Shown here piece by piece: positions 348-52,836 of a stretch of DNA of 54,778 nucleotides. A program made the position numbers and the translations under genes. Position 1 is the stretch's first letter, and every line of letters begins with the position of its first letter. The stretch is from positions 1-54,778 of the forward strand of contig JAIPDZ010000002.1 of assembly GCA_021737425.1 (NCBI GenBank). Reading direction: 5' to 3'. This stretch comes from Deltaproteobacteria bacterium. Lineage in GTDB: Bacteria > Desulfobacterota > DSM-4660 > Desulfatiglandales > Desulfatiglandaceae. Below the pieces are notes generated by a model. The model had not been told where the DNA came from. It ran no database searches and saw only the letters and a program-made list of their open reading frames with translations.

Positions 348-544
348 TCACATGGCCAGCATGTGAGAGAGGAACGAAGATGCCACTTCGTCGTTTTTCA
401 CAAAGACTGTTCTGGGTTCGGCCCGTCTCAACGTTTGCATTCTGCTACACCTAAGGCACCCATAACAGTTTAGGCCTCTGAAACGGGGTTCCAGGCCATG
501 AGGGGGTCTTTATTTCAACATGCTAAGGTAATACAGGCACCCTA

Positions 545-1511: not shown

Positions 1512-1536
1512 GTTTGCCAACCTAAGACAGGCTACC

Positions 1537-1704
1537 GGCCGCAACCAAAATGAGGTGTCAGTGTTCGGGTGTCAGGTTTCAGAAAAAAAACAAACCCTGA
1601 CACCCGAAACCCGACACCTGAAACCTTTATCTGTAATCAATTCATTGGGTTCGCATCGACAAAACTTCTTGGCTTCCGGCGTATAAGTTACGATTTAAGA
1701 CTCT
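1537..1704 (+). repeat. Dispersed ~160-bp repeat, copy B
   Basis: GGCCGCAACCAAAAT...GTGTCAGGTTTCAG...CCCTGACACCCGAAA...CACCTGAAACCTTTATC...; homologous to 545-711 and, inverted, 17200-17358. Confidence 0.65.
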
Positions 1705-2482
1705 ACTGGAACACCCCCTCCAGGCCGAAGAGATATGCCGCGTTTTGAGTGGTCTGCCGGGCCACTTCAGCCAATTCAAGCCCCCGTAACCGGGCCACCT
1801 CCCGGGCCGTGTAGGTGACAAAAAGGGGCTCATTGCGCCGGCCCCGGTTGGGCACCGGGGTGAGAAAGGGCGCATCGGTCTCCACCAGCAATCGATCCAG
1901 GGGCAGGGACGCGGCCACCTGCCGGGTGATAGTCGCTGTTTTGTAGGTGACGGTTCCGGGAATGGAAATATAATATCCCAAATCCGTAAATGCCCGGGCC
2001 AGGGCCAGGTCTCCTGAAAAACAGTGGATCACTCCTTTCCGGTCCCCTTTCCCCATCTTTTTGAGCGCCCCGTAGACCGCCTCATGGGCCTCCCGGTCAT
2101 GGATGACCACCGGCAGACCCAGGTCATGGGCCATGGTGAGCTGCTCTTCAAACACGGGCTGCTGGGCCTGGGGATTCGAATACTCCCGATAAAAATCGAG
2201 TCCGATCTCCCCCCAGGCCACTACAGCCGGATCTTCGGCCAGGGGGGCCAGTTCCGCCAAATCGGCGGGGGTGCATCCTTGGGCATTATGGGGATGGTAC
2301 CCGATGGCCGCCTTCACGCATGGATATTTTGCGGCCAGTTCAATGGCACGAACCGAGCTCTTTCTGTCGATTCCCACACTGATGATGCCGTGCACGCCGC
2401 CTTTCAGGGAACGATCCACAACCGCGTCCCGATCCGCATCAAATGCCTTCATGTCGAGATGGGCATGGGTATCAATGAGCAA
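1703..2482 (-). CDS. tatD: TatD family metal-dependent hydrolase/DNase
   Basis: MLIDTHAHLD, GEIGLDFYR, LLVETDAPFL motifs. Confidence 0.92.
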   Translation of the reverse strand: MLIDTHAHLDMKAFDADRDAVVDRSLKGGVHGIISVGIDRKSSVRAIELAAKYPCVKAAIGYHPHNAQGCTPADLAELAPLAEDPAVVAWGEIGLDFYREYSNPQAQQPVFEEQLTMAHDLGLPVVIHDREAHEAVYGALKKMGKGDRKGVIHCFSGDLALARAFTDLGYYISIPGTVTYKTATITRQVAASLPLDRLLVETDAPFLTPVPNRGRRNEPLFVTYTAREVARLRGLELAEVARQTTQNAAYLFGLEGVFQ

Positions 2483-16507: not shown

Positions 16508-17197
16508 TCACCCCATCTCTCCCCGCATCACACCAATGGTCTCTTGGTAGTCCTCGCTGTAATAGATGGCGGAGCCGGCCACAAATACGTCAGCGCCCGC
16601 AGACGACACCATCTTTATATTCTTTTCACTGATGCCTCCGTCCACCGCGATCTCGGTGTTCAGTTCCAATTCGGTGATCCGCTTTCTCAGGGCCTCTATC
16701 TTGGGAACCACCGCTTGAATAAAGGTCTGCCCTTCAAAACCGGGATTTACGGTCATCAACAGGACCATGTCCAAATCCCTCAACACATAGTCCAGGGCAC
16801 TCAGGCCCGTGGCCGGATTCAGGGCCACACCGGCCCGGATTCCCCGATCCCTGATTCGCTGGATGGTCCGGTGAAGATGGGTTACCGCCTCTGCATGGAC
16901 CGTAAGAATGGAGGCCCCTGCCTCCACGAATGCGTCGATAAACAGATCCGGATCAGAGATCATCAGGTGAACGTCGAGCGGCAGGCCGGTGACCCTGCGT
17001 GCGGCCTTCACAATCATGGGACCGATGGTGATATTGGGGACAAAGTGACCGTCCATCACGTCCACATGGATGTAATCCGCCCCCCCCTTTTCCACTGCCT
17101 GAATCTCCTCACCCAACCGGGTGAAATCCGCGGACAATATTGACGGTGCTATTTTTCCCATGCTTTCTCCTCTCCTGGGGTTTTTGTTTGTGGGCAT
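16508..17197 (-). CDS. rpe: Ribulose-phosphate 3-epimerase
   Basis: IAPSILSADFTRLGEEI, DYIHVDVMDGHFVPNITIGP, TVNPGFEGQ, VDGGIS. Confidence 0.95.
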   Translation of the reverse strand: MPTNKNPRRGESMGKIAPSILSADFTRLGEEIQAVEKGGADYIHVDVMDGHFVPNITIGPMIVKAARRVTGLPLDVHLMISDPDLFIDAFVEAGASILTVHAEAVTHLHRTIQRIRDRGIRAGVALNPATGLSALDYVLRDLDMVLLMTVNPGFEGQTFIQAVVPKIEALRKRITELELNTEIAVDGGISEKNIKMVSSAGADVFVAGSAIYYSEDYQETIGVMRGEMG

Positions 17198-17199
17198 TA

Positions 17200-17358
17200 G
17201 ATTCTTAGATTGAAACTTCTATGCAAAAAGCGAAGATGTTTTATTGAGGGTAACGCCTTTGAATCATTAGCGATAAAGGTGTCAGATTTCGGGTGTCAGG
17301 GTTTATTGTTTGCTGAAACCTGAAACCTGAACACTGGCCACTGATTTGGTTGCGGCCG
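17200..17358 (-). repeat. Dispersed ~160-bp repeat, copy C (inverted relative to A and B)
   Basis: Reverse complement GGCCGCAACCAAATCAGTGGCC...CAGGTTTCAGGTTTCAG...CCCTGACACCCGAAAT.TGACACCTTTATC...AAACATCTTCGC...AAGTTTCAATCTAAGAATC aligns along its length with 1537-1704. Confidence 0.65.
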
Positions 17359-17419
17359 TAGGCCTGCATTGGGGTACCCTTTTTAAAAGCGAGTAAGGGA
17401 CGCAGACCTTCAAGGGGTA

Positions 17420-21100: not shown

Positions 21101-21330
21101 AGGTCGAATCCCCTTTTTTCAGTGAACATCCCCAACAAGCTTCGGTTTCTGAAAAAGACCCCCTCATGGCCTGCAACCCCTTTCAACCACCTAAACGGTT
21201 ACGAAAAAGTAAACCTTTCCCGAGAGCAAGGGGCCTTTCCGTTCCTTATCATACTAACTCCTGAGGCCCAAGAAATCAAGAAACGCCGGGACCTTTTCGC
21301 ATGAAAGGATCTCTGTCCGCCACATCGGGG

Positions 21331-51132: not shown

Positions 51133-51882
51133 ATGAAAACAAAAAAGATCCTCAGCCGGGACAACCCCACATTCAAGACCTGGCTTCGCATCAGACGGAC
51201 CCGGGGGATCAAAAAGGAGGGGGTGGCCCTTCTCTCCGGGCCCAAACAGGTCCGTGAGGTCCTGGCTGCGTCCCCCGAACGATGTGCGGGCATCATTTTC
51301 ACACCGCACCACCCAACGCCTGTGGTACCGTCCACCCTCCCCCGCTATTCCCTGAGCCCCGATCTTTTCCGGCTACTGGACCTGTTTGATACGGGACAGC
51401 CTTTATTGCTGGTCCGGGTCGATCCTTTTCCCCCATTCACCTCCGGGCCATGTCCGTCCGGATGCCTCTTGTGCATCCCGTTTCAGGACCCGCCCAATGT
51501 GGGCGCGGTCATCCGCACTGCTGCCGCCCTGGGTGCAGCAGGGGTGGTTATGCTCAAGGAAGCGGCCCACCCCTTCCATCCCAAATCGCTCAGAAGCGCG
51601 GGGAGTGCCGTATTCCGAATACCCATCCTGGAAGGCCCTTCCATAAACAGTCTCGATGCCGGGGAGATACCCCTGATTACCCTCTCCCCGAACGGTCAGG
51701 ACCTTCAGGATTTTGAGTTTCCCTCCACCTTCTGCCTCCTTCCCGGCCTGGAAGGACCCGGCCTGCCCGGGCGGTTACAGGCATCGGCCCAACTCGCCAT
51801 CCCCATGGACCGACAGGTGGAGTCCCTAAACGCAGCCACCGCCACGGCCATCGTCCTCTATTGCTGGCGAAGAGGTCGCTGA
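51133..51882 (+). CDS. TrmH/SpoU family RNA methyltransferase
   Basis: SpoU motifs IPFQDPPNVGAVIRTAAALGA, LLPGLEGPGLP, IPMDRQVESLNAATATAIVLY. Confidence 0.9.
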   Translation: MKTKKILSRDNPTFKTWLRIRRTRGIKKEGVALLSGPKQVREVLAASPERCAGIIFTPHHPTPVVPSTLPRYSLSPDLFRLLDLFDTGQPLLLVRVDPFPPFTSGPCPSGCLLCIPFQDPPNVGAVIRTAAALGAAGVVMLKEAAHPFHPKSLRSAGSAVFRIPILEGPSINSLDAGEIPLITLSPNGQDLQDFEFPSTFCLLPGLEGPGLPGRLQASAQLAIPMDRQVESLNAATATAIVLYCWRRGR

Positions 51883-52128: not shown

Positions 52129-52306
52129 GAGTCAACTTCAATGTCATTAACTTAAGCAAGGTTCCAATAGTTCGATCGTCACCCCGGCGAAAGCCGGGGT
52201 CCAGAGGTATTTGAAAAGACTGCTGGATTCCGGGTCAAGCCCGGAATGACGTTTGCGCTAGTGATAAAGCGATAGAGCCTTAAGTTAATGACATTGGAGT
52301 CAACTT
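52129..52306. mobile_element. MITE-like element, 158 bp (52139-52296), with 18-bp perfect TIRs and flanking 10-bp direct repeats
   Basis: gagtcaactt|caatgtcattaacttaag ... cttaagttaatgacattg|gagtcaactt; internal hairpins accccggc-gaaa-gccggggt and attccggg-tcaag-cccggaat. Confidence 0.75.
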
Positions 52307-52407: not shown

Positions 52408-52836
52408 ATGACTGAAGCAAAAAACGGCGACACGGTCAAAATTCACTACACGGGCAAGTTAGAAGACGGAAATGTATTCGACACTTCCCTGGAACGGGAA
52501 CCCCTGGAATTTAAAATAGGCGGCGGACAGGTCATTGAGGGCTTTGAAGAGGCCGTTATCGGTATGAGCCCTTCAGATACCAAAACCACCACCATTCCAT
52601 CGGATAAGGCCTATGGGGAATACCGGGAAGATATGGTGATCGAGGTGGACAAAGGCCAGTTTCCCGATCATATCGAACCGGAAGTGGGTCAGCAACTGGA
52701 GTTAAAGCAGGAAAACGGCCAAACCGTGGTGGTTTCCATCACGGATATCAATGACCCGGTGGTGACATTGGACGCCAATCATCCGCTGGCAGGCAAGGAT
52801 CTCACCTTTGAGATCCAACTCATGGAGGTTGAATAA
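52408..52836 (+). CDS. FKBP-type peptidyl-prolyl isomerase (SlyD-like)
   Basis: KNGDTVKIHYTGKLEDGNVFDTSLEREPLEFKIGGGQVIEGFEEAVIGM. Confidence 0.94.
   Translation: MTEAKNGDTVKIHYTGKLEDGNVFDTSLEREPLEFKIGGGQVIEGFEEAVIGMSPSDTKTTTIPSDKAYGEYREDMVIEVDKGQFPDHIEPEVGQQLELKQENGQTVVVSITDINDPVVTLDANHPLAGKDLTFEIQLMEVE

Follow-up and report, generated by a model that had tools for sequence, protein, structure and literature searches.

An IS4-subgroup MITE whose core consists of two CGTC-tagged REP units placed head to head in a Deltaproteobacteria bacterium

What is the short element with perfect inverted ends that lies in front of an FKBP gene in a Deltaproteobacteria bacterium, and how did a pair of hairpins come to sit between those ends? 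We addressed these questions in the window, i.e. the whole stretch of 54,778 nucleotides that was analysed, and in the genome from which it derives (an assembly of 4.14 Mb in 309 contigs, 95.9% complete). In this report, we found that the element is very likely a MITE of the IS4 subgroup, with two 18-bp recognition ends, no gene and, as a portable core, two CGTC-tagged REP units in a polar, head-to-head arrangement.

The IS4-type MITE in the window is 158 bp long (52139-52296) and has a 10-bp duplication on either side. The left target-site duplication (GAGTCAACTT, 52129-52138) abuts the left TIR, an 18-bp IS4-subgroup end on the plus strand (CAATGTCATTAACTTAAG, 52139-52156). The right TIR, on the minus strand (52279-52296), is its perfect complement, with 18/18 positions matching, and the right target-site duplication, again GAGTCAACTT, follows at 52297-52306. 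Inside, a left linker (52157-52176) leads to REP unit 1 on the plus strand (52177-52204), which reads CGTC ACCCCGGC GAAA GCCGGGGT CCAG and contains hairpin 1 (ACCCCGGC-GAAA-GCCGGGGT, 52181-52200, 8-bp stem). A spacer (52205-52222) separates this unit from REP unit 2, which lies in the opposite orientation on the minus strand (52223-52251; reverse complement CGTC ATTCCGGG CTTGA CCCGGAAT CCAG) and contains hairpin 2 (ATTCCGGG-TCAAG-CCCGGAAT, 52227-52247, 8-bp stem); a right linker (52252-52278) completes the element. The coordinates, the 18-bp TIRs, the 10-bp direct repeat and the two 8-bp hairpins had all been given in the initial annotation, and they proved exact to the base. We estimate the chance that a perfect 18-bp inverted repeat arises within 200 bp at any point of the window at ~1.6e-4, to which the abutting 10-bp direct repeat adds a further factor of ~1e-6. 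The window's ORF listing contains no frame of at least 100 aa that overlaps the element. Its gene neighbours encode a SpoU-type methylase (51133-51882) and an FKBP protein (52408-52836; FKBP_C by Pfam); the latter gene, placed about 110 bp downstream in the earlier description, has its start codon 112 bp past the element and 102 bp past the duplication. Folded as DNA, the element reaches -40.9 kcal/mol (z = -8.95), and 0/200 shuffles were as stable.

Together, the two inner hairpins make up a head-to-head dimer of REP units with the CGTC tag. Members of this class have a CGTC tag, an 8-9-bp stem with A-T first pairs, a 4-5-base loop and a CCA tail (PMC3733652). The 8-bp stems, 4-5-base loops and CCA tails observed here fit that published class, in agreement with the REP reading first given to the double hairpin; unit 2 has every feature of a CGTC REP, and unit 1 has A-T as its first pair and C-G as its second. 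A strict pattern located 74 CGTC REP units in the genome (reversed control, 0), and a comparison of element and unit coordinates placed 31 of these inside elements with IS4 ends. The strict pattern detected 15 ACCCC/GGGGT units in this genome, every one of them inside an IS4 shell, and the free units are of the ATTCC/GGAAT type. The hairpins show little compensatory change, and RNA-level selection on them is not demonstrated by covariation this weak. REP-like hairpin inserts are present in the loops of some REP units (L015 1533-1712, L016 242-441, L041, L043, L348 and L362). According to the survey that defined CGTC REPs, these repeats lack a dedicated transposase, and the matter of how they move was deferred to later studies (Di Nocera et al., PMC3733652).

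The ends of the element point to a specific transposon family. Members of the IS4 subgroup have ends of the form -AATR--------WTW---- and generate 10-13-bp duplications; the autonomous elements are 1.4-1.65 kb in length and encode a DDE transposase whose complete YREK motif is spaced as Y-(2)-R-(3)-E-(6)-K (PMC2266710). CAATGTCATTAACTTAAG agrees with the pattern -AATR--------WTW at every stated position. Further, several pairs of these ends in other genomes, including some in the same taxonomic family, are 1380-1497 bp apart with one transposase gene between them. Full-length elements with the same ends include L248, L155, L120 and L220, whose duplications match at 10/10 bases, and L249. The transposases of these five relatives reached 168-186 bits with NF033592, the IS4 model of NCBIfam (cut-off, 115 bits), matched PF01609 as well, and align with InsG of E. 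coli IS4, with the Y-(2)-R-(3)-E-(6)-K spacing in the aligned block. The 10-bp duplication in the window and in L248, L155, L120 and L220 is within the range of the subgroup. Judged by these sequence features, the ends of the element can be assigned to the IS4 family and, within it, to the IS4 subgroup.

The 18-bp end is widespread. It occurs in 22/46 genomes and 12/23 genera of the taxonomic family (reversed pattern, 0), and a scan of GTDB genomes found it in at least 114 stretches from Desulfobacterota, Gammaproteobacteria, Bacteroidota, Bacillota and others. The initial annotation had proposed a search for a full-length transposase element with the same TIR; other genomes supplied such elements, of the IS4 family, and the element's own assembly did not. 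In that 309-contig, 95.9% complete assembly, no intact IS4-type transposase or autonomous partner was found, and the transposase search returned two partial DDE_Tnp_1 matches only, which bear no real similarity to IS4-type proteins. Repeats are often missing from fragmented assemblies, and for this reason we do not read the absence as proof of extinction; the IS4 partner may have escaped assembly, or it may be lost or extinct in this genome.

Evidence that the element has been mobile comes from its copies. A search of the genome with the element gave 40 matches, and ~20 copies or remnants are present. The best full-length copies are 93-95% identical to the window copy, with similarity that ends at the TIRs, and the TIR pattern (two or fewer mismatches) occurs at 38 sites (reversed control, 0). 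Thirteen complete copies have both TIRs and duplications that match at 8-10 of 10 bases, and the 10-mer mostly differs from site to site. The mobile reading had been staked at the outset on further copies with the same TIRs, which are indeed present with different 10-bp duplications, and on empty sites in which the target 10-mer occurs once. The latter exist in the same genome for two targets, both occupied by copies other than the window copy, as such comparisons (n=2) were possible where copies had landed in other repeats. The first target is repeat P, which reads ...CAGGTTTCAGGTTTCAGCAAACAATAAACCC... on the minus strand of the window (17197-17376), with one GGTTTCAGCA (17311-17320) at the junction; the site is unoccupied here, and its counterpart in contig C247 is filled by a related element, as GGTTTCAGCA-element-GGTTTCAGCA. 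The second is repeat Q, of which a copy on the minus strand of the window (467-537) has a single GGCCTAAACT and is likewise unoccupied. Contig C230 (L031) has TTTCAGAGGCCTAAACTGTTAC in this repeat, again with one GGCCTAAACT, and the site is filled in C294 and C139, as GGCCTAAACT-element-GGCCTAAACT, and in C254, which also has two GGCCTAAACT. Thus, the composite of IS4 ends and REP pair transposes as one unit with 10-bp duplications.

Both P (window 1520-1710 and 17197-17376) and Q (window 467-537 and 21150-21196) are dispersed repeats that have served as MITE insertion targets. The same position was hit by three copies in Q and by two in P, and therefore either there is a target preference or duplication followed insertion. 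Thirty-nine target duplications of such elements display a loosely palindromic preference, ~ASYTNNAACT.

An alignment of 19 elements from six genera and two taxonomic families resolves the composite into parts. Mean pairwise identity is 0.92/0.88 in the TIRs and 0.96/0.89 in the REP units, against 0.51 (poor) in the left linker, 0.66 in the middle spacer and 0.38, the lowest of all parts, in the right linker; the set was gathered in part with a REP-containing query, which biases the REP and end figures upward and affects their contrast with the linkers less. The place of the REP pair within the IS4 shell is constant across genera. The ends and the REP core, as opposed to the linkers, thus appear in the alignment as two conserved modules.

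These modules are also found apart. A second MITE family in the same genome is ~133 bp long and has an unrelated 19-bp TIR, GAYGGTCTCGTAAAAAGTC, which occurs at 21 sites (reversed control, 0). This second shell has 6-bp duplications, perfect (6/6) in 7 of 12 copies, and 9 of the 12 contain two CGTC tags. Copies from this genome include L033 974-1106, L034 489-621, L039 972-1104 and L351 1501-1633, and L354 1390-1519 is a copy of the second shell with a different, REP-free interior. Many more CGTC units of the genome belong to at least two further repeat contexts, and few look solitary. One recurring context, the third, encloses CGTC-REP pairs as GTTGATATCATTAGATGCAAAGATTCCGTGA ... AGAGAACTTTGGACTCTCAAG (L031, L037, L368, L369, L372 and L386), and a fourth has the end GATT(T)ATTGAGAAGATAC (L370, L373, L376, L382, L383 and L384). 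In four other genomes (G008, G070, G074 and G003), the core that IS4 ends enclose there is also present without these ends in at least one copy each. In Parabeggiatoa (G075; L317 and L318), where a first look gave several hundred candidates, the palindromic core of CAATGCCATTAACTTAAG shells also resides in a shell with the ends CAATGCCACCTTCGTTAAG. Core and shell are interchangeable in both directions: the same type of core is found in other shells, and in other bacteria the same IS4 shell encloses other palindromes.

We propose that the two 18-bp ends would be recognized by an IS4-type DDE transposase acting in trans, which would move the element by cut-and-paste with a 10-bp target duplication. 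The REP pair would be a passenger payload that hitchhikes in the IS4 shell and in at least one unrelated shell of the same genome, and this role could give CGTC REPs, for which no transposase is known, a route of dispersal. For these particular copies, the mover was probably an IS4 transposase in trans. The core may have entered the shell by insertion of a REP or by recombination between REPs. The loop insert GCTTGTCCCGGACTCCGATCCGGGA occurs in REP units of both the IS4 and the second shell, and because it is common to both, exchange between REPs is suggested. No copy of the IS4 shell devoid of any REP, as would show REP entry, was found among these elements; L044 is a deletion derivative. We discarded the idea that the shell arose as a mirror image through template switching at the REP arms, because the right linker is not an inverted copy of the left one.

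Other accounts of the composite must be weighed. In one, modeled on how QMITE2 has been read, the REP pair is the stable middle of the MITE and the free REPs elsewhere are truncated MITEs. Truncated copies that still have REP arms do exist (C101, C102, C150 and C219), and the share of CGTC units in the IS4 shell is large (31/74). However, a similar REP pair occupies the second shell, with its unrelated ends and other duplication length, as well as at least two more repeat contexts, and the MITE's ACCCCGGC/GCCGGGGT unit is missing from the free set (ATTCC/GGAAT); we consider this account improbable. Equally little credence can be given to the notion that REP units insert alone, for example by means of a tyrosine HUH transposase, with the IS4 shell as an incidental target and no co-mobilization. 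The two Y1_Tnp-type genes of this genome and the REP-in-REP-loop inserts in both shells would accord with it, but the surroundings of the tyrosine transposase genes contain no CGTC unit, and the position of the REP pair in the shell is unchanging across genera. Moreover, complete copies with the REP pair have their own 10-bp, IS4-type duplications, and therefore the composite itself has moved. Finally, the inverted repeat upstream of FKBP could be imagined to have arisen by chance or to be a structural feature such as a terminator or attenuator. This idea draws on the element's strong structure and its position 112 bp before the start codon, but it is refuted by the dispersed copies with their distinct duplications, by the empty sites and by full-length transposons that share these ends, and we regard it as very nearly out of the question. 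Scans gave no terminator-like site inside the element, no sigma-70-like promoter around it or in the interval to FKBP, and no Rfam match. A role at the FKBP locus alone is possible; the initial annotation had suggested that the element could affect FKBP expression.

The preferred reading, a REP pair carried as passenger within IS4-subgroup ends, may have a wider counterpart. Of the short elements with IS4 ends and duplications, 61 are distinct, and 47 of these have interiors that fold with z < -3, as compared to 9 of 115 control stretches, which were neighbouring sequences rather than other MITE families; when the cores are grouped by similarity, the median is below -3 in 17 of 23 independent cores. 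Labels such as 'GTAG-like' were attached to some of these cores by eye and are not relied on. This excess of structured cores across phyla is suggestive, as a hint that a palindrome benefits the MITE. One could imagine, then, that IS4-subgroup ends are a general shell that has repeatedly enclosed the host's dispersed palindrome in unrelated bacteria, with the core kept as an aid to movement of the miniature element or to its tolerance where it inserts; we offer this extension tentatively, as an idea with a real but lesser chance of being right. If it is true, REP families without a transposase of their own are spread by several different transposon shells.

An important question left open by the main survey of CGTC REPs, which found no attached transposase, is how these repeats spread (PMC3733652). 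In the genome studied here, 31 of 74 CGTC units are carried by the shell of a DDE transposon whose insertion footprints are clear, and a second shell holds a related pair. These facts suggest that hairpin repeats without a known transposase can spread by borrowing the ends of another transposon. It is now testable whether an IS4 transposase moves REPs in trans and whether the hairpin core alters the rate. Further, surveys that keep REP and MITE as separate classes will miscount both.

Compared with known systems, the element resembles the IS4 subgroup in its end pattern, its 10-bp duplication and its 1.38-1.50-kb full-length relatives with a single-orf DDE transposase (PMC2266710), but it is geneless and retains the 18-bp end only. 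The ends of E. coli IS4 itself match the element's end at 12-13 of 18 positions; that transposon starts with TAATG, and the duplication of its K-12 copy is longer (~12 bp) than that of the window element. The core resembles CGTC REP families 1 and 2 in its tag, its CCA tail, its loop of 4 or 5 bases and its 8-bp stem that begins with A-T, and also in the occurrence of head-to-head dimers and of tens of units per genome (PMC3733652). Unit 1 is ACCCC/GGGGT, whereas the usual CGTC REPs are ATTCC/GGAAT. REP dimers nested in a longer inverted repeat, as here, have been described in A. variabilis, T. roseum and H. neapolitanus, but they were ascribed neither to a transposon family nor a target duplication, and their embedding sequences differ from the IS4 end (PMC3733652). 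In the open-licence PubMed Central literature, the only near precedent for a composite of IS4, MITE and REP is QMITE2 of Coxiella burnetii. This MITE, 150-190 bp in length with TIRs and duplications of 7-11 bp, has a REP inside it, and short, REP-only copies exist too (PMC5896051). A REP inside a MITE with TIRs and target duplications is thus already known from this one precedent; in that literature we did not encounter the link to IS4, the presence of the CGTC class within an IS4 shell or the two-way modularity, and these appear to be new. The REP of QMITE2 is of the GTAG class and no IS4 link was named for it (PMC5896051), whereas the REP here is CGTC; and the short copies of QMITE2 were read as truncated MITEs (PMC5896051), whereas the core described here resides in more than one shell.
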